Shown here: one piece after another, positions 2,397 through 16,454 of the stretch | How the letters are laid out: each line of letters begins with the position of its first letter | Position numbering within the stretch: the stretch's first letter is position 1 | DNA from: Corynebacterium glucuronolyticum | GTDB lineage: Bacteria > Actinomycetota > Actinomycetes > Mycobacteriales > Mycobacteriaceae | Direction: 5' to 3' | Assembly: GCA_022772305.1 (NCBI GenBank) | Contig: JALFAQ010000023.1 | Span: 1 to 40,913 of the forward strand | Length of the DNA stretch: 40,913 bases | Made by a program: the position numbers and the translations under genes | Notes under the pieces: generated by a model | What the model was told of the DNA's origin: nothing | Database searches by the model: none | Seen by the model: the letters and a program-made list of their open reading frames with translations, nothing else

Positions 2397-3284
2397 TTAC
2401 TTCCGCTTCAGGCGCGAACACGTCACTGCCACTGCAGCCCGGGCCTTGAGCCCCAGCCACAGGGCAGCCCGCAGTGGCGCTGCCGCCACACCGGGGTGCC
2501 TATCAGCCTGAAAACGATAGGCGGAATCGTGGTGAGCAGGAAGCATCTTCTCCGGGTGCTTGCCCGCCGCATGCCCCACAGCGTGACTAATCGTCGCCTG
2601 CGGGCACAACACGTTCGTGTAGCCAGCGCGCGTGAACCGGTCCCCCAAGTCCACGTCCTCCATGTACATGAAGTAGCGCTCATCAAAACCACCAATCGCC
2701 GTAAACGCATCCCACCTGACAAGCAGGCAAGACCCGGACAGCCAACCCGCCGACCGTTCCGTCGACATGTCACTGGCATGGCGATAAGCGGCCGTCCACG
2801 GATTTCCTGGCCACACCGCGCTAAACAAGGCGTGGCCGATCCCGTTCGTGATCGTCGGTACAGCGCGGGCGGAGGGGTACGCGCTTCCGTCGGCCTCTAG
2901 AATCAGCGGGCCCACGCAGGCGGCATCAGGCCATCGATCGGCACACTCGATGAGCGTGTCGATAGCTCCCTCACCGAACTCGACATCGGGGTTGGAGATG
3001 ATGAAGTACTCGTCGTTGACCTCGCCTTTTTCCCGCTTGTCTACCAAGTGCTTGACGGCGATGTTGATAGCGGTGCCGTAACCCACATTTCCACCCGTGG
3101 GCAGGAATTCCACGGCTGGATCGGCTGCCGCAGTTTCCTCGGGAACTCCGTCGGTGGAGCCGTTATCCACAAGGACGGTATATGTCCCGCGGGTGGTTGC
3201 GCGCGCCAGAGAATCAACAAATCTCCCCAGGTACTCACCCGGGGAGTAGGTAACGGTAATGACGGCAATTAGCTTCACGGTCAC
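2397..3284 (-). CDS. wbbL: WbbL-type rhamnosyltransferase (GT2 family)
   Basis: A 295-residue GT-A glycosyltransferase. Residues 5-12 start the Rossmann fold, the nucleotide-binding motif DNGSTDG is at 40-46, and NPDVEF is the metal-binding acidic motif near residue 99. A hydrophobic C-terminal stretch may contact the membrane. The known family role is transfer of rhamnose from dTDP-rhamnose to decaprenyl-PP-GlcNAc, forming the linker that joins arabinogalactan to peptidoglycan. It starts at a GTG that overlaps the rmlD stop as GTGA, so the two are translationally coupled. The dTDP-rhamnose would come from the adjacent RmlD. Confidence 0.88.
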   Translation of the reverse strand: MTVKLIAVITVTYSPGEYLGRFVDSLARATTRGTYTVLVDNGSTDGVPEETAAADPAVEFLPTGGNVGYGTAINIAVKHLVDKREKGEVNDEYFIISNPDVEFGEGAIDTLIECADRWPDAACVGPLILEADGSAYPSARAVPTITNGIGHALFSAVWPGNPWTAAYRHASDMSTERSAGWLSGSCLLVRWDAFTAIGGFDERYFMYMEDVDLGDRFTRAGYTNVLCPQATISHAVGHAAGKHPEKMLPAHHDSAYRFQADRHPGVAAAPLRAALWLGLKARAAVAVTCSRLKRK

Positions 3285-4144
3285 TGAATCCTACCTGCCA
3301 CCGCGCGCTCAACCCCGCTTCGCCACTCCGGAAACGGCGTAAACCCAGCAAGTTCCCAGGATGCGGTATCCAACACACTCCACGGCGGACGCTTCGCCGC
3401 CTGCGGGTATTCCTCACTCGTGCACGGCGTTACCCGCTCCGGATCGGCCCCCGCCGCTTGGTAGGTGGCGCGGGCAACCTCACACCACGTGGCCTGCCCC
3501 GCACCCACGGTGTGGTACACCCCGGTTACCTCCGAATCGACGGCCTCCCACAATCCCCTGGCCAGGTCGAATGCAAAGGTAGGGCTGCCCATCTGGTCGT
3601 CGACAACACGCGCCGGCTTCCCCTCGCGAGCCAGGCGCAGCATGGTAGAGACGAAGTCCTTCTTGCTTGGTAGGCAGTCGCCACTGAACAGCCACGCCGT
3701 CCGCGCAATGAGGGTGTTTTCCCTGCCGGCAAGCTCCCTTTCTCCTGCCAGTTTGCTGACCCCGTAGACCGTGTCGGGTGCGGTGGGGTCCTCGGGTGTC
3801 AGGGGCCTTCTGGGCGCCCCCGATCCGAAGACATAGTCGGTGGAGACGTGGATGAGGCGCGCGGCGGTCAGCTCCCCCAGCCGTGCTACCCCACAGTGGT
3901 TGACAGCCTCCGCCCCCTCGCTGTCGCTTTCTTGCTTGTCGACATCTGTTCGCGCCGCACAGTTCACCACGCACCCAACGCCCAAGAGGGCGTCCTTCGC
4001 CCGTCGCGTCACATCGCGGTCGCCGGCGGCAAGCGCTGCCAGATCGATGTCTCCCCTACCAAGCAGACGAAGGAGGAAACCGGGGTTGGTGAGCCGCAGC
4101 GCGGTCCCTAACTGACCACCCTGGCCCAGGACTGCAATTTCCAT
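3281..4144 (-). CDS. rmlD: dTDP-4-dehydrorhamnose reductase
   Basis: A 287-residue short-chain (extended) reductase catalysing the last step to dTDP-L-rhamnose. The NAD(P)-binding GQGGQLG is at 7-13, STDYVF at 101-106, and the catalytic YGVSK (Tyr127, Lys131) at 127-131. It is first gene of the minus-strand rmlD-wbbL-manB operon and is divergent from the LCP ligase gene, sharing a 69-bp promoter gap. It is a stand-alone RmlD rather than a fused RmlC-RmlD protein. Three exact copies of the GCTTGGTAGG repeat lie inside the gene (3456, 3665, 4055). They are read in three different contexts: Tyr-Gln-Ala, Leu-Pro-Ser-Lys and Leu-Gly-Arg. Confidence 0.9.
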   Translation of the reverse strand: MEIAVLGQGGQLGTALRLTNPGFLLRLLGRGDIDLAALAAGDRDVTRRAKDALLGVGCVVNCAARTDVDKQESDSEGAEAVNHCGVARLGELTAARLIHVSTDYVFGSGAPRRPLTPEDPTAPDTVYGVSKLAGERELAGRENTLIARTAWLFSGDCLPSKKDFVSTMLRLAREGKPARVVDDQMGSPTFAFDLARGLWEAVDSEVTGVYHTVGAGQATWCEVARATYQAAGADPERVTPCTSEEYPQAAKRPPWSVLDTASWELAGFTPFPEWRSGVERAVAGRIQ

Positions 4145-4213
4145 GAGACCTTTCCCGTTGTAAAATTTAGGTCCTACTATTATTGCCCACTTTATTGGAG
4201 GTTCGCGAAGGCC

Positions 4214-5779
4214 GTGTCTAACCGCTCCCGACTGGTCCGCAATATCCAGCCCGCGCCACGGTCGACCCCCCGCACGCAGCAGAAAGGCTCCCGCCTGGTG
4301 AAGGGGGTCGTCGCCGGTGTCAGCGCACTAGCCCTCCTATTCTCCGGGCTCGGCTACGCCTCCGTGGGCAGGATCGGCGCGGAAGTCGCGGGCACAGGCA
4401 ACCTCGAGCTCGGTGGCGGCGGGGGTATTAAGCACGGCATAGCTAAGGATGGCGCGACAGATATTCTCCTCGTCGGTTCCGACTCCCGCTCCGATGCCCA
4501 GGGCAACCAGCTCACGCCGGAAGAAATCGACATGCTTCACGCCGGCGACGAGGAAAACGACAATACGGACACCATCATGCTCATCCGTGTGCCCAACGAC
4601 GGGTCCTCCGCCACCGCTATCTCCCTGCCCCGCGATACCTACATTCACGATGCCGAACACGGCAACATGAAGATCAACGGCGTGTACAAGACACACAAGG
4701 ACGAGCGCGAGATGGAGCTGCGCGAGGAGGGGCGCACCGACGAGACGTACATCGAGACCGAGGCGAAGGATGCCGGTCGTCGTGGCCTCATCCAGGCGAT
4801 CTCCAACCTCACGGGCATTACTGTCGATCACTACGCGGAAATCGGCCTGCTCGGCTTCGTCCTGTTCACCGACGCAGTCGGCGGCGTGGAGGTGTGCCTT
4901 AACGAGGCCACCTACGACGAGTACTCCGGTGCCGACTTCACCGCCGGCTACCAAACCCTGGGCGGCCCGCAGGCCCTGTCCTTCGTGCGCCAGCGCCACG
5001 GCCTGCCCCGCGGAGACCTGGACCGCATCGTTCGCCAGCAGGCGTTTATGGCCTCGCTCGTGCAAAAGGTGTTGTCCTCCGACACATTGACCAACCCGTC
5101 GAAGCTCACGGAGCTGGCGGAAGCCGCGCGGCGCTCGGTGATCATCGACAAGGACTGGGACATCATCAGCTTCGCCACGCAGCTGCAAAACCTCGCCGGT
5201 GGCAACGTGCGCTTCGACACCATCCCCGTTACCTCCGTCGACGGTGTCGGCGACTACGGCGAATCGATCATCACCGTCGATCCGGACGAGGTAAAACGCT
5301 TCTTCGAATCCCTACTGGGCACGAAGGACAACCCGAACCCGCACGCCGGCGAGACGAATACGCCCGCAGCCCCCGATGTGACGGTCACCGTCCTCAACGC
5401 CTCGCAGATTCCCGGCCTTGCCGGCTCCGTCGGTGGCTGGCTCCACGACGAAAGCTACCGCGTCACGACGGTCACCAACGCCCAGGAAGGCCTCTACTTC
5501 AGCTCCCAGGTGGTCGCGCACAGCACCGACGACCCGGCGGCCAAGGAGATCGCCGAAAAGCTCGGCAACCTCCCGATCACCACCTCCCCCACGCTCGATC
5601 CGGGCTCCGTCGTGGTGGTCACCGCCAGCGACTACACAGGCCCGCAATCCGACAGTTCCTTCGAGGAGCAGGACACCGACACCGGCACAGATGTCGTGGG
5701 ACAGCCAGGCGCTGCACTGGAGGAGCCCCTCTCGCCCACGATCACGGCAGAGGGTAACCGCCCGCAGTGCGTAAACTAG
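4214..5779 (+). CDS. LytR-CpsA-Psr (LCP) cell-wall glycopolymer ligase
   Basis: A 521-residue membrane-anchored LCP protein, expected to attach arabinogalactan or other polyprenyl-linked polymers to peptidoglycan. A basic cytoplasmic N-terminus precedes one membrane helix at about 31-50. The LCP catalytic domain follows (about 85-300), with the phosphate/metal-binding DTIML and SLPRDTY region and the conserved RQRHGLPRGDLDR helix. A LytR_C domain (VTVLNAS, about 393-480) and a Pro/Glu-rich tail close the protein. The start is GTG, with GGAGG at 4197-4201 and GAAGG at 4207-4211. It is divergent from rmlD, which fits an arabinogalactan-ligation role; the exact polymer is an inference. Confidence 0.9.
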   Translation: MSNRSRLVRNIQPAPRSTPRTQQKGSRLVKGVVAGVSALALLFSGLGYASVGRIGAEVAGTGNLELGGGGGIKHGIAKDGATDILLVGSDSRSDAQGNQLTPEEIDMLHAGDEENDNTDTIMLIRVPNDGSSATAISLPRDTYIHDAEHGNMKINGVYKTHKDEREMELREEGRTDETYIETEAKDAGRRGLIQAISNLTGITVDHYAEIGLLGFVLFTDAVGGVEVCLNEATYDEYSGADFTAGYQTLGGPQALSFVRQRHGLPRGDLDRIVRQQAFMASLVQKVLSSDTLTNPSKLTELAEAARRSVIIDKDWDIISFATQLQNLAGGNVRFDTIPVTSVDGVGDYGESIITVDPDEVKRFFESLLGTKDNPNPHAGETNTPAAPDVTVTVLNASQIPGLAGSVGGWLHDESYRVTTVTNAQEGLYFSSQVVAHSTDDPAAKEIAEKLGNLPITTSPTLDPGSVVVVTASDYTGPQSDSSFEEQDTDTGTDVVGQPGAALEEPLSPTITAEGNRPQCVN

Positions 5780-5784
5780 CGCCA

Positions 5785-6384
5785 ATGGAGTTGTTGTCAC
5801 ACCTCAGTCCCACCGAACCACGCGTCACCGTCTACAACGAGACGCGTGGTAGCCGAGTGGAGTTTTCCGCCGTCACGCTGTCCAACTGGGCTGCAAAAGT
5901 CGCCGGCATGCTTCGCGACGAATGCGACCTCCTCCCCGGCGATTCCATCACCCTCGATGTCCCCCACGATTGGCAGGAAATCGCCATCGCTCTGGGTGCC
6001 ATTGCCGCCGGGATCACCTACGGTGAGCCCCGAGGAGACGAAGAGGTCGCACTCCTGGGCGTCGACAAGCAATCAACCGCACCCACCCAGATCATCGTCG
6101 GCGACGACCCCCTCGGTGCCCCACTTCCCGACGACCAGCTGCCACCCGGTGCGCTCGACTTTTCCACCACGGTCCGCATGTACCCCGACGCGTTCCCCGA
6201 GCCGACGCCGAGCCTGGAAAAACCCGGCTCCTCTACCAAGCGGATCGTCCGCGCCTCCGCCGACAGCTGCGCGCAGGCGCTCGAACAGCTCGCCACCGGT
6301 GGCGCGATCGTCATCGTTCGGGGCGAGGCCAGCGACGAAAGATTCGCCCACATTGCGGCCGTAGAGCACGCCGACGCTTGGTAG
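5785..6384 (+). CDS. TIGR03089 family protein
   Basis: A 199-residue protein of an actinobacterial family distantly related to the N-terminal part of AMP-binding (acyl-CoA synthetase-like) enzymes but too short to hold the full fold. The region SNWAAKVAGMLRDECDLLPGDSI resembles the start of such enzymes. The ATG at 5785 is preferred over one at 5767 because TAAACT (5772-5777) lies seven bases before it, a leaderless arrangement; the upstream ATG would overlap the LCP gene. Its stop codon is the TAG inside a copy of the GCTTGGTAGG repeat (6376-6385). Function unknown; it commonly neighbours LCP genes. Confidence 0.75.
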   Translation: MELLSHLSPTEPRVTVYNETRGSRVEFSAVTLSNWAAKVAGMLRDECDLLPGDSITLDVPHDWQEIAIALGAIAAGITYGEPRGDEEVALLGVDKQSTAPTQIIVGDDPLGAPLPDDQLPPGALDFSTTVRMYPDAFPEPTPSLEKPGSSTKRIVRASADSCAQALEQLATGGAIVIVRGEASDERFAHIAAVEHADAW

Positions 6385-6393
6385 GGTAAACGT

Positions 6394-7428
6394 GTGGCTG
6401 ACGTAGTTTTCAAAGACGTGTGCATCCGCTACCCCGGTGCCGACAAACCAACGGTGGAGGGCCTCAACCTCCACATTCACGACGGCGAGTTCCTCGTCCT
6501 TGTCGGGCCTTCCGGCTGCGGCAAATCCACCACCCTGCGGGCCTTGGCCGGCCTGGAGAAGGTCGCCTCCGGCACAATTACCATCGGGGGCCGTGATGTC
6601 ACCGACAGTGAACCTGCCGACCGCGACGTGGCGATGGTGTTCCAAAACTATGCGTTGTACCCACACATGACCGTCGCCAAGAATATGGGTTTTGCGCTGT
6701 CACTGGCGAAGCTGCCGCAAAAGGAGATCGACCGCAAGGTGGCCGATGCAGCAGCGATGCTCGACCTCACCGAATTCCTCAACCGCAAGCCCAAAGACCT
6801 CTCCGGTGGCCAGCGCCAGCGCGTGGCCATGGGGCGCGCGATTGTCCGCGAACCGCACGTCTTCCTCATGGACGAGCCCCTCAGCAACCTCGACGCTAAA
6901 CTCCGCGTCCAGACCCGCACGCAGCTCGCCAACCTCCAGCACCGCCTCGGCACCACCACCGTTTACGTCACCCACGACCAGGTCGAGGCTATGACCATGG
7001 GCGACCGCGTCGCCGTCCTCAAGGATGGGGAACTCCAGCAAGTCGCCTCCCCCCGCGAGCTTTACGACGCCCCCGCCAACGCCTTCGTCGCCAGCTTTAT
7101 CGGCTCCCCCGCCATGAACCTCATCCCCGCCGATGTCGCAGGTCTCGGTGCTGTAACGTTTGGCATTCGGCCCGAGGATCTGCACTGCTCCACAGCTGAC
7201 GCACCGGGAGCGGGTATTCCGGCAACCGTGTCCCTGGTAGAGGAACTGGGTTCAACTTCGTACGTCTACGCCCACCGCAACGACGACCCCTCCACGCCGC
7301 TTGTCGCTAGGCTGAGCGACGGCCCGTCCCCCTTCCGAGGGGATCGCGTCCTCCTCATCCCGGATATGTCCAAGGCACACTATTTTGACCGCGAGACGGG
7401 TAAGCGCGTTCGTTCCCCCCAAATGTAG
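6394..7428 (+). CDS. tusK: ABC importer ATPase, UgpC/MsmK/SugC type (probable trehalose uptake, TusK)
   Basis: A 344-residue ATPase of the sugar-import CUT1 family. Walker A GPSGCGKST is at 38-46, the LSGGQ signature at 136-140, Walker B VFLMDEP at 156-162 and the switch His194. A C-terminal MalK-like regulatory/OB region follows (about 235-344) with the GIRPED motif. The GTG start sits 6 bp after TAGGGT (6382-6387), suggesting a leaderless transcript. That TAGGGT overlaps a GCTTGGTAGG repeat. The gene is followed by a sugar-binding lipoprotein and, beyond a patatin gene, two permeases. Trehalose specificity is inferred from resemblance to corynebacterial TusEFGK and mycobacterial LpqY-SugABC. 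Confidence 0.88.
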   Translation: MADVVFKDVCIRYPGADKPTVEGLNLHIHDGEFLVLVGPSGCGKSTTLRALAGLEKVASGTITIGGRDVTDSEPADRDVAMVFQNYALYPHMTVAKNMGFALSLAKLPQKEIDRKVADAAAMLDLTEFLNRKPKDLSGGQRQRVAMGRAIVREPHVFLMDEPLSNLDAKLRVQTRTQLANLQHRLGTTTVYVTHDQVEAMTMGDRVAVLKDGELQQVASPRELYDAPANAFVASFIGSPAMNLIPADVAGLGAVTFGIRPEDLHCSTADAPGAGIPATVSLVEELGSTSYVYAHRNDDPSTPLVARLSDGPSPFRGDRVLLIPDMSKAHYFDRETGKRVRSPQM

Positions 7429-7464
7429 GTTAATTTACTGTATTTACGTGGCCCCGTAGTTAAT

Positions 7465-7478
7465 CTGGTTCTAACCAG
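7465..7478. promoter_or_regulatory. inverted repeat upstream of sugar-binding lipoprotein gene
   Basis: CTGGTT-CT-AACCAG forms a perfect 6-bp inverted repeat 26 bp before the GTG start of the lipoprotein gene. It lies in the 75-bp gap after the ATPase gene. It could be an operator half-site pair or a small leader hairpin; there is nothing to identify a regulator. Confidence 0.3.
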
Positions 7479-7503
7479 TTGTTCATTTAAAAGGAAGGTT
7501 CAC

Positions 7504-8766
7504 GTGACTACCAAGCGTTTGACCGTCATCGGTGCTGTGTGCACCGCCGCAGCCCTCGCCCTGACGGGCTGCTCTTCCGAAACGAGTGCACCAGAGGGTG
7601 CCTCCCAGTCGTCGACAAGCGAAGAAACCACAGGCACCGCCGACCGCGGACCGATCACCTTCGCCATGGGCAAAAACGACACCGACAAGCTGCAACCAAT
7701 TATCGAGAAGTGGAACGCTGACCACCCCGATGAAGAGGTAACGCTCAAGGAACTCGCCGGCGAAGCCGATGCCCAGCGCGAAACCCTCGTCCAATCCCTC
7801 CAAGCCGGCTCCAGTGACTACGACGTCATGGCCCTCGATGTCATCTGGACCGCCGACTTCGCAGCCAACCAATACCTCGCACCCCTGGAAGGCGATCTCG
7901 CCGTCGACACCAGCGGACTCCTGCCCGCCACCGTCGAATCCGCCACCTACCAAGGGACCCTCTACGCCCTCCCGCAAAACACCAACGGGCAGCTCCTCTT
8001 CCGCAACACCGACCTCGTCACCGACGCGCCGGCCAACTGGAAAGAACTCGCCGAAAGCTGCAAGGCCATCTCCGAAGACTGCCTCACCCTCCAGCTCAAG
8101 CAGTACGAAGGCCTAACCGTCAACACCACCAACTTCATCAACGGCTGGGGCGGCAGCGTCCTCGACGACTCCGAACAACCCGCCGTCGAAACCGACCAAG
8201 CCAAGGAAGGCCTCCAGGCACTCGTCGACGGCTACGCCGACGGCACCATCGCCAAGGGCTCCACCTCCGCCACCGAAGAAGAAACCAACCTCGCATTCAC
8301 CGAAGGCACCACCGCCTACGCCGTAAACTGGCCCTACATGTACACCAACGCCAAGGAAGCCGGCATCAACTTCGAAGTCACACCCCTCGTAGCCAAAGAT
8401 GGCACCGGCGTATCCACCCTCGGCGGCTACAACAACGGCATCAACGTCAACTCCAAACACAAGGCAACCGCCCGCGACTTCATTGAATTCATCATCAACG
8501 AAGACAACCAGGCCTCCTTTGCCGACAACTCCTTCCCGCCGGTCCTCGCATCCATCTACGAAGACGCCACCCTCGTGGAGAAATACCCCTACCTCCCCGC
8601 ACTGAAGGAATCCCTCGAAAACGCCAAACCACGACCCGTCAGCCCCTTCTACACCGCCATCTCCAAGGCCATCCAGGACAACACCTACGCCGCCATCACC
8701 GCAGGCAAGTCCATCGATGACGCCACCGCGGACATGGCTGCCGCTATTTCGCAAGCTGCGAAGTAA
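7504..8766 (+). CDS. tusE: extracellular solute-binding lipoprotein of the sugar ABC importer (TusE-like)
   Basis: A 420-residue substrate-binding protein. The N-terminal signal (MTTKRLTVIG...) ends in the lipobox LTGC with the lipidated Cys23, followed by a Ser/Thr/Glu linker. The body is a cluster-B type sugar-binding fold with LQAGSSDYDVMALDVIW and the Trp-rich INGWGGS region. The AAAAGGAAGG ribosome site at 7489-7498 supports the GTG start. It should deliver trehalose or a maltose-like sugar to the two permeases encoded downstream. Codon third positions are overwhelmingly C here, unlike the second permease gene of the same system. A strong terminator follows. Confidence 0.88.
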   Translation: MTTKRLTVIGAVCTAAALALTGCSSETSAPEGASQSSTSEETTGTADRGPITFAMGKNDTDKLQPIIEKWNADHPDEEVTLKELAGEADAQRETLVQSLQAGSSDYDVMALDVIWTADFAANQYLAPLEGDLAVDTSGLLPATVESATYQGTLYALPQNTNGQLLFRNTDLVTDAPANWKELAESCKAISEDCLTLQLKQYEGLTVNTTNFINGWGGSVLDDSEQPAVETDQAKEGLQALVDGYADGTIAKGSTSATEEETNLAFTEGTTAYAVNWPYMYTNAKEAGINFEVTPLVAKDGTGVSTLGGYNNGINVNSKHKATARDFIEFIINEDNQASFADNSFPPVLASIYEDATLVEKYPYLPALKESLENAKPRPVSPFYTAISKAIQDNTYAAITAGKSIDDATADMAAAISQAAK

Positions 8767-8774
8767 CCCTTAAG

Positions 8775-8810
8775 AAAAATACCGCTGCCCTACCAAGCAG
8801 CGGTATTTTT
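8775..8810 (+). terminator. Rho-independent terminator with GCTTGGTAGG repeat in the loop
   Basis: A perfect 13-bp stem (8775-8787 and 8798-8810; arms AAAAATACCGCTG and CAGCGGTATTTTT) with a 10-base loop CCCTACCAAG. The A-rich and T-rich ends make it bidirectional between the lipoprotein and patatin genes, and it touches the patatin stop codon at 8810. The loop and first stem base together spell an exact CCTACCAAGC copy (8789-8798). Confidence 0.9.
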
Positions 8811-9673
8811 TAGCTATTAAAGAAATCGAGCCACTCCGGCCACTCGCGGTCCACCTGTTCCCGGCCCGCTTGGTAGGACGCCATGATCTTTGCCCCGTCG
8901 CGCTCCTTGTTACTTACCAGTGGCCCCTCAGGATAAAACACCTTGGCTTTCCCCTCCCGCTCTAGCTTGTCGACGAGCTCGAGCGACGCGTTGTACCTCT
9001 CATGACGCGTCATCATCAAATCCACCACCGCCGGATACTTCCGCAGCACCGCGCGTAACACCTCCGGGTGGGTGAGGGCGGTGCGTCTGAAACCGCGCGG
9101 GCGGGTGAGGACGATCGCAAACTTCTCCCTACCAAGCGCCGGAGCAATGGGGATGCCACCAGTATCACCGACGGCACCGTCGACGTAGGGGTGACCATCG
9201 ATGAACGGAATCTTCATGACACCTGGCATCGTTGCCGACGCGCGGGCCGCCAGCATCACCGACCGCTTGGTAGGCAGATCTGCGCGGTTCCACGTGACGG
9301 TCTCACCTGTGTCGGCACGAACGGCCTGGATGCAGACCTCGGCGGGATGGGCGAAGAAGGCCTCGAAGTCGAAGGGAAGGGCACCGTCGGGTTGTGCGAT
9401 GTCCTGGTAGAGGTACTGGCCGTCGAAAAGCCCCCTACCAAGTAGAAGCGGGGCGAGACCGCCGATGCGACGGGAGGAGAGGAGCGTCGAAAAGCTAACG
9501 CGGGCGCGAAACTCGTCGTGGGAGAGATAGTTGAGAACCTGGGACGCACCAGCGGAAATACCGCCAGCCCAGCCGACCTCCACACCACTGGAAATCAAGC
9601 GTTCGAAGAAGCGAGCCGTGTAGCTCGCGCGCATGCCGCCACCCTCGACGACAAGAGCCACAGACTTACACAT
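8810..9673 (-). CDS. patatin-like phospholipase
   Basis: A 287-residue patatin-fold acyl hydrolase. The oxyanion loop GGGMRASY is near residues 11-18, the nucleophile elbow GISAGAS carries the catalytic Ser (about residue 41), and DGAVGD carries the catalytic Asp (about residue 164). The ATG at 9673 is preferred over a GTG six bases upstream because TACGGT on the minus strand (9681-9686) lies 7 bp away. No signal peptide. It is encoded opposite to the ABC importer and splits it between lipoprotein and permeases. Three exact repeats lie inside it, with one more 9-bp core. It is also flanked by CCTACCAAG at 8789 and 9711 in the same orientation. Substrate unknown. Confidence 0.88.
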   Translation of the reverse strand: MCKSVALVVEGGGMRASYTARFFERLISSGVEVGWAGGISAGASQVLNYLSHDEFRARVSFSTLLSSRRIGGLAPLLLGRGLFDGQYLYQDIAQPDGALPFDFEAFFAHPAEVCIQAVRADTGETVTWNRADLPTKRSVMLAARASATMPGVMKIPFIDGHPYVDGAVGDTGGIPIAPALGREKFAIVLTRPRGFRRTALTHPEVLRAVLRKYPAVVDLMMTRHERYNASLELVDKLEREGKAKVFYPEGPLVSNKERDGAKIMASYQAGREQVDREWPEWLDFFNS

Positions 9674-9732
9674 AACCACAACCGTAGTCCCCTAAACTAA
9701 CAACCAAACCCCTACCAAGGAAAGGGAAACGC

Positions 9733-10761
9733 GTGCAACAAGCCAAACAAACCAGGACGGCATGGGCGCTGATCGCCCCCACACTCATCGTCCTCGGCAT
9801 CGTCATCGGCTACCCCATCCTGCGGGCCATTTACTTATCCTTCCAACAGGATAAACACCTGGATCCCGAAACCGGATTATTTGTCCAAGGCGGCTTCGCC
9901 GGCGCCGACCACTACCTCTACTGGCTGCAACAACGATGCATGAGCCCCTCCGGCGTCGTCGGCACCTGCCCACCAGGCATCATCGCCACCGACTTCTGGC
10001 CCGCCGTACGCATCACCCTCTTCTTCGCCGTCGTCACCGTCGCACTCGAAACCGTCCTCGGCCTCTGGATGGCAACCGTCATGAACAAGGAATTCCGCGG
10101 ACGCGGACTCCTCCGCGCCGCCGTCCTCGTCCCCTGGGCCATCCCCACCGCCGTCACCGCCAAACTCTGGCAATTCCTCTTCTCCGACCACGGACTCATC
10201 AACTCACTGCTTGGTAGGGATACGTCCTGGACCACCGATCCCTGGGCCGCCCGCACCGCCGTCATCATCGCCGATGTCTGGAAAACAGCCCCCTTCATGG
10301 CGCTGCTCATCCTCGCTGGCCTCCAAATGATCGACAAGGAAATCTACGAAGCAGCACGCGTTGACGGAGCCGGACGCTTCCAAATCTTCACGCACATCAC
10401 GCTGCCCCTCGTCAAACCCGCACTCATGGTCGCCATCCTCTTCCGTACCCTCGACGCACTCCGCATGTACGACCTACCAGTCATCATGATCTCCTCCAGC
10501 TCCAACTCCCCCACCACCACCATCTCCCAACTCGTCGTTGAGGACCTCCGCCAAGGCCACTTCAACTCCGCCAGCGCCCTCTCCACCCTCATCTTCCTCC
10601 TCATCTTCGCCGTCGCCTTCATCATGATCCGGTTCTTGGGGGCGGATGTGGCGCCACGGAAGCAAAAGATGCCGCCTCCCCTACCAAGCGCCCCCGCAGC
10701 CCCCGTGGAGCCGATTCGCATTGATGGATCCACCATCACTACCAAGGAGAACCAGCGATGA
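9733..10761 (+). CDS. tusF: sugar ABC importer permease, MalF/SugA type (TusF-like)
   Basis: A 342-residue permease with six to seven membrane helices. Helix 1 is at about 12-32, a periplasmic loop with two cysteines follows (about 68-79, RCMSP...TCPPG), and the EAA coupling motif is at EAARVDGAGRFQIFTHITLPLVKPA (about 206-230). The start is GTG, with a purine-rich AAGGAAAGGG site (9717-9726) that begins at the end of a repeat core. The stop overlaps the next permease start as ATGA. The C-terminal 40 residues are Pro/Ala-rich and cytoplasmic. Codon use changes abruptly near 10640, from C-ending to G-ending codons. Confidence 0.88.
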   Translation: MQQAKQTRTAWALIAPTLIVLGIVIGYPILRAIYLSFQQDKHLDPETGLFVQGGFAGADHYLYWLQQRCMSPSGVVGTCPPGIIATDFWPAVRITLFFAVVTVALETVLGLWMATVMNKEFRGRGLLRAAVLVPWAIPTAVTAKLWQFLFSDHGLINSLLGRDTSWTTDPWAARTAVIIADVWKTAPFMALLILAGLQMIDKEIYEAARVDGAGRFQIFTHITLPLVKPALMVAILFRTLDALRMYDLPVIMISSSSNSPTTTISQLVVEDLRQGHFNSASALSTLIFLLIFAVAFIMIRFLGADVAPRKQKMPPPLPSAPAAPVEPIRIDGSTITTKENQR

Positions 10762-11579
10762 AAACAGCACGCACATACTTCGGAGCCGCCATCATCGTCT
10801 TGTGGACCCTTGCTCCCTTCTACTGGATGGTGGTCACTGCCTTCCGCGATTCGAAGCACACCTTCGACACCACCCCGTTTTTCACGCATGTAACGCTCGA
10901 GAACTTCCAGGATGCCCTCGCCACTGATAAGGGAAATAACTTCCTCCGGGCAATCGGCAATTCGCTTGTTATTTCGCTTGCCACCACCGCTCTAGCTGTC
11001 TTGGTAGGGGTGCTGGCGGGGTATGCTCTCGCCCGCCTGAATTTCCGCGGAAAGGGCATCGTCACAGCAATCATTTTGGCGGCATCGATGTTTCCTGGGA
11101 TTGCGTTGGTGACGCCGCTTTTCCAGCTGTTTACTAACCTCGGCTGGATTGGCACCTACCAAGCGCTGATTGTGCCGAACATTTCGTTTGCGCTGCCGTT
11201 GACGGTGTACACGTTGATTAGCTTCTTCAAGCAATTGCCGTGGGAGTTGGAGGAGGCTGCGCGCGTGGATGGGGCGAGCCGTTTTACGGCTTTCCGGAAG
11301 GTGTTGTTGCCTTTGGCGGCACCGGCGTTGTTTACCACCGCAATTTTGGCGTTCATTGCTACGTGGAATGAGTTCATGTTAGCGAAGCAGCTGTCGACAA
11401 CTGCGACAGAGCCGGTCACCGTGGCGATTGCGCGCTTCTCGGGTCCGAGTGCATTCGAGTACCCGTACGCGTCGGTGATGGCGGCGGGCACGCTCGTGAC
11501 CGTCCCCTTGGTAGTGATGGTGCTCGTCTTCCAGCGGCGCATCGTCGCGGGCCTGACGGCTGGTGGTGTGAAGGGGTGA
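10758..11579 (+). CDS. tusG: sugar ABC importer permease, MalG/SugB type (TusG-like)
   Basis: A 273-residue inner-membrane permease with six predicted helices. The EAA loop motif EEAARVDGASRFTAFRKVLLPLAAPA is at about 165-190. It overlaps the TusF stop by four bases and so is translationally coupled. It completes the importer with the ATPase and lipoprotein upstream. Third codon positions favour G and T, unlike the C-ending codons of the lipoprotein and most of tusF. Two repeat cores lie inside (11000-11008 and an exact copy at 11155-11164, encoding Tyr-Gln-Ala). Trehalose as substrate is inferred from the family. Confidence 0.88.
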   Translation: MKTARTYFGAAIIVLWTLAPFYWMVVTAFRDSKHTFDTTPFFTHVTLENFQDALATDKGNNFLRAIGNSLVISLATTALAVLVGVLAGYALARLNFRGKGIVTAIILAASMFPGIALVTPLFQLFTNLGWIGTYQALIVPNISFALPLTVYTLISFFKQLPWELEEAARVDGASRFTAFRKVLLPLAAPALFTTAILAFIATWNEFMLAKQLSTTATEPVTVAIARFSGPSAFEYPYASVMAAGTLVTVPLVVMVLVFQRRIVAGLTAGGVKG

Positions 11580-11590
11580 CGAAGGCACGT

Positions 11591-11628
11591 CGAATAGCCC
11601 ATCAGGAAGGCTCCTGGTGGGCTATTCG
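11591..11628. terminator. long hairpin between convergent tusG and HNH genes
   Basis: A 17-bp stem (11591-11607 and 11612-11628) with one G-T wobble and a four-base AGGC loop. No T run follows on either strand, so it is a terminator-like hairpin for two converging genes rather than a textbook intrinsic terminator. Confidence 0.65.
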
Positions 11629-11630
11629 GT

Positions 11631-12785
11631 CTAGTGCTCGCGGAAGACTCCGCGTTGTCGGATGTTGATCCCGCGACCGCAGCGGTCGCGGAGTTCGCTG
11701 CGGTTGAAGTGCAGCGTGTCGGACCCGGGTGGTTTGAATCCGGCTTCACCGGTCACGGGGTCGCGTTCGTGGCGGCCGTTTTTGGGTTTTCCGGGGTCAT
11801 CGTCGTTGCGCCCGTTGTGGTATTTACACAGCGGGATGAGGGTGACCGCGTCGGTGAGTCCGCCGAGGTAGTGAGCCTTGCTGTGGTGCATTTGGCTGTA
11901 GACGGCTGGACGGTAGCAGCCGGGGTGAGCGCAGAATATCTGGTCGCAGGCGAGGGCGGAGCGAAGCTCGGGACTGGCGAATCGTTCGTTTTCTAGCTGG
12001 TAGTGGACACCGATGTTGCCGTTCTTGTCGTAGATCGAGACGAAGGCGAATGGCGCGAGCCGGGAGTTGGCGATGTCCTCTGCGTCGATGAGGTTGCCGT
12101 CGGTGGTGGCGAACTTGCCGTCTCCTTGATAGGTGAGATCGTCGGCGTTGATGATGAAGCAGGGGCTAAGGGTGCGATCCCAGATGCGGGTGAGGGTGAC
12201 ATCGTCAAAGGTTTTTTCTTTCCACAGGGCGACGAGTGTACGGAGGCCCTGTGCCCAACGGGCGGAGGTCGACATGGAGGAATCGTCGGGGGCTAGGTAG
12301 TTGCAGACGCTGATGAACTCGTCCATCTGCTGGGCTTTAAGCGCCAGGCGCGCGTGCTTGAGACCCGTGGCATCGGCACGCTGGCCAACGGTGAGTGACG
12401 GTTGGGTGGTGCGTGGTAGGTGGGCACGACCGCGTTCTGCGCACGCGTTCTTCATTTCCGGCACGGTTGGAAGCTTATCGACGGCGTAGCTGAGCATCTC
12501 CTCCCGGTAGGTTTCCCGCTCTTCCGGTTCCAGGTTGTTCATCCCCTTAGAGATGAGAACGAGGAACTCGGTGGGCAGCTCATTGGGGCGTGGGTCGGCC
12601 TCGAGGTCGTAGTCCACCCAATTGGTGGCGCCGTTACAGAGCCAGCGAGAGAAAGAGGGAGAAAGATGATAATCGTCGACAAGCCTCTCGACTCGTTGCG
12701 CGACAGAAGAGCCGAGGGCGAGGGCCTCAAAGAGGATGGCCGTGCCCGTCAGCGAAGTCGCGAGGGAGTCGAGTGCGTGTGTCAT
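11631..12785 (-). CDS. HNH endonuclease domain protein (DUF222/13E12-like)
   Basis: A 384-residue protein with a long helical N-terminal region of the type found in actinobacterial 13E12/DUF222 proteins. A C-terminal HNH nuclease domain carries zinc-knuckle Cys in CAHPGC, the HH motif in QMHHSKAHYLGG, and LCKYHNGRNDDD. I chose the ATG at 12785; a GTG 27 bases upstream would add nine Arg/Val-rich residues lying on an inverted repeat. The family is common in multiple copies in actinobacteria and its biological role is unclear. A second, related HNH gene is cut by the end of this window. Confidence 0.85.
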   Translation of the reverse strand: MTHALDSLATSLTGTAILFEALALGSSVAQRVERLVDDYHLSPSFSRWLCNGATNWVDYDLEADPRPNELPTEFLVLISKGMNNLEPEERETYREEMLSYAVDKLPTVPEMKNACAERGRAHLPRTTQPSLTVGQRADATGLKHARLALKAQQMDEFISVCNYLAPDDSSMSTSARWAQGLRTLVALWKEKTFDDVTLTRIWDRTLSPCFIINADDLTYQGDGKFATTDGNLIDAEDIANSRLAPFAFVSIYDKNGNIGVHYQLENERFASPELRSALACDQIFCAHPGCYRPAVYSQMHHSKAHYLGGLTDAVTLIPLCKYHNGRNDDDPGKPKNGRHERDPVTGEAGFKPPGSDTLHFNRSELRDRCGRGINIRQRGVFREH

Positions 12786-12800
12786 GCCTCGAACTCTAAC

Positions 12801-12827
12801 TACCACGCGCACGGGATGCGCGTGGTA
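12801..12827. repeat. 10-bp perfect inverted repeat upstream of HNH gene
   Basis: TACCACGCGC (12801-12810) and GCGCGTGGTA (12818-12827) flank a 7-base loop, 16 bp before the HNH start and 37 bp after the DUF218 stop. No T run follows on the minus strand, so it may be an operator or a weak terminator of the birA-purK-purE operon. Confidence 0.5.
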
Positions 12828-12863
12828 GGCGCAGGATCTGTGGATAACTCGGCTGCAGGTGAG

Positions 12864-13316
12864 CTACAGGCTGTGGAATTTGCGCCAAAGGATGCGCGCA
12901 GCCGAGTGCGAAATCGCAGCTAGCTCGCGTGTATAGATGAACAAGCGTCGGTTAGCGGGGGTCGACGCAGTGATGACGTTCACATCAAAGTGATGGTGCC
13001 AGGCCCACATGCGGACGCGAGGGGCGTGGAAGTCGCTCGTGACGACGTCGAAACGCGTAGCTCTACCAAGCGCCACAGAGGCGTTCTCGAGGTTTTCGTT
13101 GGTTGAGCGGGCGTGGGGTTCGACGATGATGCGGGCGGGGTCGACTCCGTGGGTGACGAGCCAGTCGCGCATCGCCTCAGCCTCGCCGTTGTGGCCAGTG
13201 ACGACGACGGTGGAAGCGGGGGTGATGTGGCGGCGGGCGACTACCAGGCGACGTGTGAGGGTGGCGCCTGGTAGGCCGTCGATAAGCCTGGAGCCGAGGA
13301 TGACGAGCGGGGTCAC
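12864..13316 (-). CDS. DUF218 (YdcF/SanA-like) protein
   Basis: A 150-residue DUF218 domain protein. It opens with VTPLVILGSRL, has TVVVTGHNGEAEAM and the conserved ARSTNENLENA segment, then VVTSDFHAPR. The start is a GTG one base after the purE stop; the longer open frame upstream is only a shadow of purE in another frame. Family members such as SanA act in envelope integrity in other bacteria, but they carry a membrane helix that is absent here, so this copy would be cytoplasmic. It is last gene of the birA-purK-purE run. Function unknown. Confidence 0.8.
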   Translation of the reverse strand: MTPLVILGSRLIDGLPGATLTRRLVVARRHITPASTVVVTGHNGEAEAMRDWLVTHGVDPARIIVEPHARSTNENLENASVALGRATRFDVVTSDFHAPRVRMWAWHHHFDVNVITASTPANRRLFIYTRELAAISHSAARILWRKFHSL

Positions 13317-13317
13317 G

Positions 13318-13815
13318 TTAGGACAAGCGCTCGTGGAGGCGACGCTCCTTCTCCTCCACCTCGGTGGCCATATCCGCTTGGTAGGCGGACATCTTTTCGA
13401 CGAGCGCTGGGTCGCCGATTCCGAGCATCCGCACGGCGAGGAGCCCTGCGTTCTTGGCGCCACCGATAGACACCGTCGCGGTGGGAACACCGGAGGGCAT
13501 CTGGACGATGGACAGGAGGGAATCCAGACCATCGAGGTCCTTGAGTGCCCGTGGAATGCCGATGACCGGCAGCGGGGTGGCTGCGGCCGTCATGCCCGGC
13601 AGGTGGGCGGCACCGCCGGCACAGGCGATGATGACCTTGATGCCACGGGTGTGGGCGGTGCGGGCGTAGTTGAGCATTTTGTCAGGGGTGCGGTGCGCGG
13701 AGACGACGCCGACTTCGTAAGAGACGTTGAACTCGTCAAGAATGTCGGCGGCGGGTTTGACCGTGTCCCAATCGGAGTCGGACCCCATGATGATTCCTAC
13801 CAAGCAGTTACTCAT
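13318..13815 (-). CDS. purE: 5-(carboxyamino)imidazole ribonucleotide mutase
   Basis: A 165-residue class I PurE, converting N5-CAIR to CAIR in purine synthesis. The substrate-binding motifs are MGSDSDW at 10-16, SAHRTPD with the catalytic His45 near 43-49, and GGAAHLPGM near 67-75. It overlaps the purK end by eight bases (ATGAGTAA), giving translational coupling to its partner enzyme. Exact repeats lie at its start (13796, encoding Leu-Val-Gly) and near its end (13376, encoding Tyr-Gln-Ala). So one repeat lies within the first few codons of a housekeeping enzyme. Confidence 0.95.
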
Positions 13816-14956
13816 GGCTACCCACTATAATCCCGGCGGCGGCACGGGCGCGGGCGCGGACGGTGTCCGCATCGGTGCCGGAGACGTTGACGTGGCCGAG
13901 CTTGCGGCCGGCGCGGTAGGACTTGCCGTACCAGTGGATCTTGGCCTCGGGGTAGCTCTCCCACACCTGGGTCATGGCGGCGGGGATGTCCTGCTCCGAG
14001 TCGCCACCGAGGGTGTTGACCATGCAGGTGACGGGGGCGGTGCGGGCGGTGGAGCCGAGGGGGAGGTCGAGTACTGCGCGGAGGTGCTGCTCGAACTGGC
14101 TGGTGACCGATCCGTCCTGGGTCCAGTGGCCGGTGTTGTGGGGGCGCATGGCGAGCTCGTTGATGAGGATCTCACCGTCGGTAGTTTCGAAGAGCTCGAC
14201 GGCGAGGACACCGGTGACGCCGAGCTTCTCAGCAACGGTGCGGCCGATGTGGCGGATGGTGTCGGCTTGGATGTCGGTAAGCCCGGGTGCGGGGGCGAGT
14301 GCCTCCACGCAGATACCGTCGGTTTGGATGGTCTCGGTGATGTCCCACTGCGCGATGCCGCCGGAGGGGCGACGGGCGGAGAGGATGGACAGCTCACGCT
14401 TGAGCTCCACCTTGTCCTCTGCCATGAGGTGAACACCCTTGTCCATGAGCTCGGCGGCGAGCGTTGGCGCGTCGTCGGTGAACCAGACACCGTGGCCGTC
14501 GTAGCCGCCGCGGATCGCCTTCAGGCAGATCGGTTTTCCGCTTGGTAGGCGGGAGGGGTCGGTGACATCCGTGAACCACGGCACCGGCAGCCCCAGTTCC
14601 TTCATCTTCTTGCGCATTTCCAGCTTATCCTGGGCGTAGACGAGGGCGTCGGGCTGAGGCTGGACGTTGATGCCTGCGTCGATGAGGGTGTGGAGGATCT
14701 CGTTGGGGACGTGCTCGTGGTCGAAGGTGACGGCGGAGGAGCCGCAGGCGACAGACTGTACGTCGGCAAGCGTGGTGTAGTCGCCGACGGTGATGTCGGG
14801 GGTGACCTGGGCTGCTGACGAGTCGATGGCGCCGGCCAAGAGGCGGATGGTTAGGCCGAGTTCGGTTGCTTCTGTCTGCATCATGCGGGCGAGCTGACCG
14901 TCGCCGATTACGGTGACAATCGGCATGCCAGGCGCATGGGGATCGTTAGTGCTCAC
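13808..14956 (-). CDS. purK: 5-(carboxyamino)imidazole ribonucleotide synthase
   Basis: A 382-residue ATP-grasp enzyme making N5-CAIR from AIR, ATP and bicarbonate. The N-terminal [10 protein letters not shown] is the AIR-binding Rossmann segment. The ATP-grasp core has [10 protein letters not shown], the [12 protein letters not shown] strand, and [13 protein letters not shown] binding metal near the C-terminal third. I chose the GTG at 14956, ten bases after the preceding gene's stop; an ATG at 14926 would start just before the conserved [10 protein letters not shown]. Further upstream codons overlap the PH-domain gene. An exact repeat at 14540-14549 encodes Leu-Pro-Ser-Gly. Confidence 0.93.
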
Positions 14957-14966
14957 CCTTGTAACC

Positions 14967-15425
14967 CTAGTAGCTCCCCTCGATGAGCCGAACGAGCTGC
15001 TTGGTTTTGGGCAAGTTGTCGATGATGACGGGGCGCCGAGAAGCGTAGGTGGACACGACAAGCGTGGACGAACGCCGATTGATGGCCTCGATTTCCTCGA
15101 AGAAGATGGTGAGGGGACGAACGAAAAGCCCCGGCTTGCGGTACGCGATCCGCTTGGTAGTGATTATGGTCCGGGCGGTGCGGGACATGAGCACGGGCCA
15201 GAGGAACCCGATGAGGACCCACACGGCCCAAATAGCGAGCACGAGTCCCCGCCACTCCGGGGGAAGCACGACACCGGCGAGCTCCGCATCTGCGGGCCTG
15301 TCGAAAACACCGAGGGCGATGGAGCACACGCCGGTGGACAATAGGAGCTGGACGACGGGCATGGCGAGATGGCGGTAGGTGGTGGTGACGTCGGCGAGGA
15401 CGACCTCTCCTGGCTCGAGACGCAC
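14967..15425 (-). CDS. PH-domain membrane protein
   Basis: A 152-residue protein with two membrane helices (about 20-40 and 62-80) followed by a bacterial PH-like domain beginning TTKRIAYRKPGLFVRP, the usual signature of these proteins. The GTG start lies only three bases after the birA stop, and the purK start is ten bases after its stop, so it is co-transcribed. Corynebacteria and mycobacteria commonly keep such a gene between birA and purK. The role is unknown. Confidence 0.85.
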   Translation of the reverse strand: MRLEPGEVVLADVTTTYRHLAMPVVQLLLSTGVCSIALGVFDRPADAELAGVVLPPEWRGLVLAIWAVWVLIGFLWPVLMSRTARTIITTKRIAYRKPGLFVRPLTIFFEEIEAINRRSSTLVVSTYASRRPVIIDNLPKTKQLVRLIEGSY

Positions 15426-15428
15426 GGT

Positions 15429-16220
15429 TTACTCCAGGGGGCGTACGTGGTGCACTTCGCCGGCGGACAGCTCGTGGAGCTCGCCGGAGCGGTCGCGGAC
15501 GACGAGGAAACCTTCGTCGGTGACATCTTCTCCCCTACCAAGCAGATCGTCGGTGCCGGGGCGCATGACGCGGATGTCTTTGCCGATGGTGGAGCACACT
15601 GCGCGGTAATCGTCCATGTGGACATCGCCAGTGACCCAGGCACCGAGGCGGTTGCGCATGGCGGTGAGGACGGAGACGGTGAGCTCGGTGCGGTCGACAT
15701 CGATTCCCTCCAGCGCGAGGGAGGTGGCATTGTCGACGGGCAGTTCCTCGCGAGTAAGGGAATGGTTGAGCCCGCAGCCGAGGACAACTTCGGGGTGGTT
15801 GGTGGCCAGCGCCTGGGCCTCGCCGAGGATGCCACAGATCTTGTTGCCGTTGACGAGGACGTCGTTCGGCCACTTGAGGGCGACTTGGGAGCCGAGGAGG
15901 GGCTGGATGGCGTCGATAAGCGCGAGACCAGCCATGAGAGACAGGGAGCCGAAGTGATCGAGGGTGCGCGGACGCACGAGAACAGAGAAGGTGACCTGGG
16001 AGTATGCGGGAGTGACCCACGCGCGGCCCCGGCGGCCACGGCCGGAGTCTTGGAACTCGGCAATCTCCGCCGTGAAGGTGGGGGCACCGTCGGCGGCGGC
16101 TTGGAGGAGGTCGGCGTTGGTGGAGCCGGTCTGCTCGAGGACGGTGAGCTGCTGATACAGGTTCGTGTCTACCAGGCGGCGGTGAAGTTCCTCGCGGTTG
16201 AGTGGCTCGCGGTTAGTCAT
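15429..16220 (-). CDS. birA: biotin-[acetyl-CoA-carboxylase] ligase
   Basis: A 263-residue class I (monofunctional) biotin protein ligase without the N-terminal DNA-binding domain. The biotin/AMP loop GRGRRGRAW is near residues 59-67, KWPNDVLV near 114-121, and the SH3-like C-terminal domain ends at HHVRPLE. The ATG at 16220 is chosen over the longer frame because TAGAAT (16228-16233, minus strand) lies 7 bp upstream, giving a leaderless transcript. It is divergent from accD, and AccBC and Pyc, both with AMKM biotin sites, lie nearby. An exact repeat (15534) encodes Leu-Leu-Gly-Arg. Confidence 0.93.
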   Translation of the reverse strand: MTNREPLNREELHRRLVDTNLYQQLTVLEQTGSTNADLLQAAADGAPTFTAEIAEFQDSGRGRRGRAWVTPAYSQVTFSVLVRPRTLDHFGSLSLMAGLALIDAIQPLLGSQVALKWPNDVLVNGNKICGILGEAQALATNHPEVVLGCGLNHSLTREELPVDNATSLALEGIDVDRTELTVSVLTAMRNRLGAWVTGDVHMDDYRAVCSTIGKDIRVMRPGTDDLLGRGEDVTDEGFLVVRDRSGELHELSAGEVHHVRPLE

Positions 16221-16454
16221 GGTGTGAATTCTAATCGCTTCCACCCTATCCACCCCCAATGGGTGTAGCACACGAACGCAAATCGGACATCATACATCGA
16301 AGCGGGCACCGGTCCGACTACCCCTTGTCGCTGCGGTTTTTACCCTCACCACGAGATTTGGTGTCACCAAAGGGGCGGGGTGTGAAGGAAACTGAGAAAA
16401 ATCTGTAGTGGGAAATGTCACTTTCTGGATTCTCTTACACGCTAGACTGGCGAT
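16221..16454. promoter_or_regulatory. divergent birA/accD promoter region with palindrome
   Basis: A 234-bp gap with two candidate -10 boxes: TAGAAT (16228-16233, minus) for birA and TAGACT (16443-16448, plus) for accD, each 6-7 bp from its start codon. A perfect 7-bp inverted repeat TTTGGTG-T-CACCAAA lies at 16357-16371, about 85 bp before accD, and is the best operator candidate. Fatty-acid regulators of the FasR kind control accD genes in this genus, but I cannot match the site to a known consensus. Confidence 0.5.

Follow-up and report, generated by a model that had tools for sequence, protein, structure and literature searches.

The window considered here is a stretch of 40,913 nucleotides of Corynebacterium glucuronolyticum (assembly GCA_022772305.1, contig JALFAQ010000023.1), and it raises the question of why a single 10-bp word, GCTTGGTAGG, should be crowded into 12.1 kb of it. 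A previous sequence-only reading of the window proposed an uptake or chromosome-organising signal and did not report the gene at 11634-12812 (minus strand), which lies inside the island of words and codes for a predicted HNH nuclease of 393 amino acids. It is likely that GCTTGGTAGG is the recognition site of this HNH protein itself, and that this gene-plus-word island is one of a family found in Corynebacterium. Three comparisons carry this view: word islands are associated with HNH genes, word density decays with distance from them, and the word follows the protein; the words are therefore very likely targets of the proteins. A protein that reads the word would be the simplest account of the island data.

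The island at 3456-15543 holds 15 exact copies of GCTTGGTAGG, 8 on the plus and 7 on the minus strand, while the remainder of the 41-kb window has none; recount and shuffles bear out the sequence-only reading on this point. In 100 dinucleotide shuffles of the window the word had a mean of 0.05 copies and a maximum of 1. Sites with at most one mismatch number 29, versus 1.89 expected, and 27 of them fall inside the island. Either of the two 9-mers is found 19 times in the window, rather than the 18 given earlier, and the 8-bp core CTTGGTAG 26 times, 25 of these within 3457-15535. The clustering also held when counted genome-wide: the island accounts for 15 of the 19 copies in the source genome (2.61 Mb, 92 contigs), where the reversed control word has 4 copies. 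Over 201 Corynebacterium genomes the count per genome is 0-9, except for 19 each in the source genome and in G097, where 15 of the 19 lie, among the matches listed, in the orthologous stretch C1:643720-655811. Shuffles and whole-genome counts against the reversed word rule out chance or composition as the source of the cluster. The sites are single and non-palindromic, no inverted core pair within 60 bp being present among the 26 cores of the window. A resemblance of GCTTGGTAG to a tRNA D-arm was dropped as the window has no tRNA. The island and its sites are as follows.

3456..15543, no strand: word island (span of 15 exact copies), from word counts
3456..3465, plus strand: GCTTGGTAGG, exact match
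3665..3674, plus strand: GCTTGGTAGG, exact match
4055..4064, minus strand: GCTTGGTAGG, exact match
6376..6385, plus strand: GCTTGGTAGG, exact match
8789..8798, minus strand: GCTTGGTAGG in a terminator-like hairpin loop, exact match; hairpin read from the sequence
8868..8877, plus strand: GCTTGGTAGG, exact match
9128..9137, minus strand: GCTTGGTAGG, exact match
9265..9274, plus strand: GCTTGGTAGG, exact match
10209..10218, plus strand: GCTTGGTAGG, exact match
10680..10689, minus strand: GCTTGGTAGG, shifted by 3 bases in G097, exact match and alignment
11155..11164, minus strand: GCTTGGTAGG, exact match
13376..13385, plus strand: GCTTGGTAGG, exact match
13796..13805, minus strand: GCTTGGTAGG, exact match
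14540..14549, plus strand: GCTTGGTAGG, exact match
15534..15543, minus strand: GCTTGGTAGG, exact match
3040..3049, minus strand: variant with CTTGGTAG core, alignment to G097
6232..6241, minus strand: variant with CTTGGTAG core, exact word in G097, one-mismatch scan and alignment
7507..7516, minus strand: variant with CTTGGTAG core, one-mismatch scan and alignment
7946..7955, minus strand: variant with CTTGGTAG core, one-mismatch scan and alignment
9434..9443, minus strand: variant with CTTGGTAG core, one-mismatch scan and alignment
9711..9720, minus strand: variant with CTTGGTAG core, one-mismatch scan and alignment
10738..10747, minus strand: variant with CTTGGTAG core, alignment to G097
10999..11008, plus strand: variant with CTTGGTAG core, one-mismatch scan and alignment
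11506..11515, plus strand: variant with CTTGGTAG core, alignment to G097
13062..13071, minus strand: variant with CTTGGTAG core, exact word in G097, one-mismatch scan and alignment
15152..15161, plus strand: variant with CTTGGTAG core, one-mismatch scan and alignment

The HNH gene has no exact copy of the 10-base word within it, and the island is off-centre on it, reaching 8.2 kb to one side and 2.7 kb to the other.

11631..12812, minus strand: predicted HNH nuclease gene, 393 amino acids, coding 11634-12812, stop codon 11631-11633, from invariant HNH-region residues, homologue names and fold matches

The association of islands with such genes was surveyed in Corynebacterium, with one genome per species throughout, by taking 20 kb around each of 60 HNH genes (the first 63 listed, from which the window gene, its orthologue in G097 and a gene at the end of a contig were left out). 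Words of 8 to 12 bases were scored against a second-order Markov expectation with an island cut-off of P<1e-14; the genome-wide word GCTTNNCGACG was left out of the scoring as a separate matter. Islands were found at 30 of the 60 HNH-centred loci, a count that includes the CRISPR-like array of locus L237, and at 21 of 60 for P<1e-20. None of 20 control loci, taken from nine of these genomes at round-number coordinates, reached 1e-14 (Mann-Whitney p=2.7e-8 for HNH loci versus these controls). Among 79 ugpA-centred controls none reached 1e-14 and two reached 1e-12; these are the long-enough ones of 93 (13 plus those of at least 17 kb), some loci being counted twice. In none of the 93 ugpA-centred loci, up to 13 of which are one locus counted twice, does CTTGGTAG occur more than 3 times, and the window island is thus not a fixed feature of the ugp-purK region.

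The island words differ between loci (CCTCCTAG, with 44 copies in 20 kb, AAGTTAGGAG, CCGTGGGGAA, TATTGGGGAA, TTTCTGCACA, TCTTATTGGG, TCTCTGAAGGG and others). They are 8-12 bp long, present in 5-44 copies per 20-kb locus and balanced between strands (225 versus 228 over 31 loci). At the L250 locus the word follows the presence of the gene: the four genomes with the HNH gene all have 1.6-2.6 CTCCTAG per kb, and the eight orthologous loci where no HNH gene was found (from 8 genomes out of 20 initially chosen) all have 0-0.25 per kb. In the titles and abstract beginnings listed from the open-licence literature no description of word islands around HNH genes was found. Three side observations come from the same loci. 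The L237 array (L237:400-1400) has a repeat containing CTCACGCGGGGA in 30 close copies. In the clade of L251, L255 and L262, AAGTTAGGAG often forms an inverted pair with a fixed spacing of 18 bases (6, 4 and 3 pairs, respectively), as for a dimer or a hairpin. Four close genomes (L260, L261, L264 and L266) have a weak common word, ACATCCGG, around their HNH genes, below the island cut-off.

The density of the words falls with distance from the HNH gene. In five near-complete genomes selected for strong islands (G192, G087, G084, G221 and G112) it is 1-2 per kb within 2 kb of the gene, 0.2-0.7 per kb at 5-10 kb, 0.08-0.25 per kb at 20-40 kb and 0.001-0.01 per kb beyond 160 kb. The window type of island is sharper, G097 having zero further copies between 10 and 160 kb.

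An island's word is tied to its protein more closely than to the surrounding DNA. In many cases, HNH proteins that are neighbours in the tree have identical words or words one base apart. L267 and L259/L269 have CCGTGGGGAA in common, with 57% identity between their HNH proteins and no detectable similarity between their flanks; L253 and L256 likewise have TATTGGGGAA, with 45% identical HNH proteins and unrelated flanks. For the 444 pairs whose flanks are unrelated, words are near-identical in 2% of those below 25% protein identity and in 28% of those above 42%, a modest effect. When representatives are taken from 16 locus clusters, similarity of protein correlates with similarity of word (rho 0.24, permutation p=0.0095); the flank clustering put L211 together with L245, which share 1.9 kb, and L230 together with the window, which share their neighbourhood, despite their different HNH genes.

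Conversely, a shared neighbourhood can carry different words. In G084 the ugp-purK neighbourhood of the window recurs in partly rearranged form, and its HNH protein is distant, sharing 32% identity over 250 residues; TTCTGCACA occurs there 22 times versus 0 in the window, and CTTGGTAG 4 versus 26 times. L250 shares flanks with L236/L241/L243, and its HNH protein is 54% identical to theirs. There are 44 CCTCCTAG and 6 TCTCCTAG in L250, while L241 has 9 and 20, respectively; counting exact words only, the 20 TCTCCTAG places of L241 correspond in L250 to CCTCCTAG in 8 cases, to TCTCCTAG in none and to something else in 12. A one-base difference separates two paralogues of the source genome that are 43% identical: the base before CTTGGTAG is G in 19 of the 26 window cores versus T in 9 of 9 around the C38 paralogue (Fisher p=0.0002).

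The island region has genes for a glycosyltransferase, RmlD, LytR-CpsA-Psr, TIGR03089, a ugp-type ABC transporter, patatin, DUF218, PurE, PurK, BirA and AccD. The sequence-only reading had placed copies in purE and birA, and Pfam confirms both genes.

13318-13815, minus strand: purE, Pfam
15429-16271, minus strand: birA, Pfam

The gene table places 21 of the 26 cores within genes, a number that rises to 23 once purE and birA are added; both orientations and all three reading frames are used, in agreement with the earlier statement that the words are read in every frame. Three cores are intergenic, one of them in the terminator-like loop. These three would suit regulatory sites at which the HNH protein or another protein acts as transcription factor for the surrounding genes, an explanation made very unlikely by the cores inside genes in all frames and by the recurrence of the same word around unrelated genes that adjoin related HNH genes. 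Strand balance and indifference to reading frame would be expected of a DNA-uptake signal, as the sequence-only reading had it, or of import from a genome where the word is common. This is scarcely credible: uptake signals are genome-wide whereas the rest of the 2.6-Mb genome is at background (4 copies), none of the 201 genomes of the genus, to which the search for a donor was confined, exceeds 19 copies, orthologues of most island genes are found in relatives that lack the words, and aligned loci show many sites where a substitution created a word (though certain words of L250 fall in stretches without counterpart).

The island is 85.4% identical between the source genome and G097, a species about 15% diverged. 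At this divergence 23 of the 26 cores are unchanged in G097 and one more is moved by a 3-base gap, while 34% of random 8-mers of the island are unchanged; the DNA word itself is therefore maintained. This upholds the earlier argument that selection or spread acts on DNA and not on protein. The comparison of orthologous codons covered genes for which 15 or more orthologues were at hand and took the 23 codons that have two or more bases in common with a core; the DUF218 frame used overran purE. Word codons fall at less conserved positions (mean consensus frequency 0.58 versus 0.75), and words therefore arise at sites where the proteins can bear a change. Among codons with a consensus of at least 50%, the residue is off consensus in 7 of 15 word codons versus 363 of 1983 others (p=0.012). 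The excess disappears at a consensus of at least 70% (1 of 8 versus 141 of 1551, p=0.54), and at 85% or more the counts are 0 of 3 versus 64 of 1271.

The window HNH protein has no significant match in Pfam or NCBIfam. Some of its relatives in a protein search carry the name HNH endonuclease, and residues C294, C299, H309, H310, C329, H332, N336, D337 and D338 are invariant in all 45 aligned members (the window protein and 44 relatives). The Pfam HNH profile matches 29 of the 45, the window protein not being among them; the DUF222 profile matches 3 (best E 0.00059) and has no match to the window protein up to E 10. Searching PDB sequences with the family profile brought up no convincing relative, the best hit (E 0.017) being a designed protein, and Foldseek against PDB found nothing at E<=0.001. 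The top structural matches of models of two distant members are mostly the DNA-binding domains of ParB, Noc, Spo0J and KorB, and the HNH part resembles that of EcoKMcrA and ScoMcrA, which are restriction enzymes, and of the CBASS effector Cap5. From these models, an N-terminal ParB/Noc-like domain is predicted that would read the word, along with a C-terminal HNH domain whose role would be nicking or cutting at it.

Genes of this kind number at least seven in the source genome and at least seven in G097, seven candidates having been scored per genome. Their presence at conserved loci is sporadic: this is seen at the L250 locus (present in 4 genomes, not found in 8) and at the window locus, where among 14 loci compared a full-length match to the window HNH gene is found only in G097, the other 13 giving one 19% fragment. 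The patatin gene at 8810-9679 (with DUF6363) shows the same distribution, with a match in G097 and none in the 13 other Corynebacterium loci.

What favours the proposed chromosome-organising role is the predicted ParB/Noc-like fold. A local organiser or partition-like protein might bind the words through this domain, best near its own gene where it is made, the HNH part being structural or used for rare processing. Conservation of the words between the source genome and G097 and the paired sites of the L251, L255 and L262 clade would also agree with it. As the DNA-binding match starts at residue 9-25 in the best rows, there is no room at the N-terminus for the CTP-binding domain of ParB and Noc. 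The HNH-region residues are invariant and the window sites single and non-palindromic. A housekeeping organiser would hardly produce islands that are sporadic, occur several per genome with different words and surround nuclease genes. This explanation is accordingly held to be unlikely.

The resemblance to EcoKMcrA, ScoMcrA and Cap5 would also fit a defence nuclease that attacks foreign DNA, the words near the gene serving as self-marks or controlled docking sites. However, the words lie mostly within tens of kb of the gene and do not cover the genome, and therefore cannot mark self; the scan of island genes, of which the PADLOC library was not part, identified no methyltransferase. Such a role is improbable.

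The preferred reading is that of a selfish nuclease gene that provokes recombination and around which words accumulate by linkage; we give it a probability of about one half. Nicks or cuts at the words would start recombination, or cause flanking DNA to pass into other cells, and word-rich DNA would in this way be copied more often. A new word arising by mutation near the gene would be copied along with it, and words would accumulate by linkage across the length of the exchanged tracts. The gene would be a selfish element making its neighbourhood a recombination hotspot to its own advantage. Linkage would give the gene-centred decay, because a new word spreads only if inherited with the gene. 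The scheme requires that word-bearing DNA be favoured as donor, for instance through nicks at the words that start strand transfer or export, as ordinary homing would instead erode the words. Three results limit the preferred reading. At P<1e-14, 30 of the 60 HNH loci have no island. DUF222 loci of 20 other actinobacterial genomes (two of the loci only 10.7-10.8 kb long) gave no island below 1e-14, the lowest score, -12.6, being a local repeat. In L252 the HNH gene has an in-frame stop and 30 words are kept.

A wider formulation can be put forward only tentatively, at rather less than even odds. In it, chromosomal selfish HNH genes would fill their surroundings, up to tens of kb of host genes, with their own short target word through preferential donation in recombination between cells. 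Linkage would select the words, new paralogues could differ in specificity by no more than a single base, and the island word would change along with the protein. If true, bacteria would have a recombination drive centred on a gene, with targets that build up by linkage where homing would on the contrary be expected to erode hotspots; actinobacterial HNH genes, of which a large class is poorly explained, would gain a possible function. The profile of word density would then be a record, legible from sequence, of the lengths of gene-exchange tracts in Corynebacterium. The roughly 30 island loci are natural protein-word pairs for decoding the DNA-binding domain.

The word left out of the survey, GCTTNNCGACG, is genome-wide and strand-balanced, with 945 copies in the source genome versus 57 of its reversed control. 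The corresponding counts (control in brackets) are 998 (55) in G097, 1682 (87) in G026, 840 (27) in G043 and 1574 (66) in G069; G084 (63 versus 37) and G006 (97 versus 71) are near control level. Its middle bases vary between species and it may be a separate signal.

Among known systems, free-standing HNH homing endonuclease genes, such as those of T4-like phages, are similar in being stand-alone, sporadic at conserved loci and likely site-specific, and the HNH catalytic and zinc-binding residues are likewise kept in 45 of 45 members. Such endonucleases are expected to provoke recombination of their flanks. Their recognition site is one and long, about 14-40 bp, unlike the many 8-12 bp words that decay over tens of kb around a chromosomal gene, if these words are the target. 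A homing endonuclease gene interrupts its site, which leaves its own chromosome without intact targets; a further difference, again if the word is the target, is that intact words are found here on both sides of the gene on its own chromosome. PMC10448857 reports nuclease genes at boundaries of genetic exchange between bacteriophages. The literature found, at the level of titles and abstract beginnings, mentions no target islands around homing endonuclease genes.

The DUF222/13E12 (REP13E12) HNH proteins of actinobacteria combine a helical N-terminal part with HNH and have many paralogues per genome; REP13E12 loci encode DUF222-HNH proteins. The present family differs in that the DUF222 profile matches few of its members and not the window protein, and in that the 20 DUF222 loci lack islands. 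Few sites in M. tuberculosis undergo gene conversion as often as the REP13E12 loci, according to the available text of PMC13061034, which does not use the term 'HNH'. ParB, Noc and KorB resemble the family in its predicted N-terminal DNA-binding fold and in the many scattered sites; here HNH takes the place of the CTPase domain, and the sites are local to the gene, mostly single and non-palindromic.

The uptake sequences of Neisseria and Pasteurellaceae are short words present on both strands and inside genes, over the whole genome. The island word differs in being local, with 15 of 19 copies in 12 kb, and tied to one gene. We know of no demonstration of distributive conjugal transfer in Corynebacterium and, taken as analogies, neither mycobacterial conjugal tracts nor REP13E12 gene conversion shows the process in this genus. 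In mycobacteria this transfer is described in the available text of PMC3706393 without target words, unlike the islands, and with tracts of 33.8 kb on average (range 59 bp to 226 kb); the widths of the Corynebacterium islands are of the order of these tract sizes.

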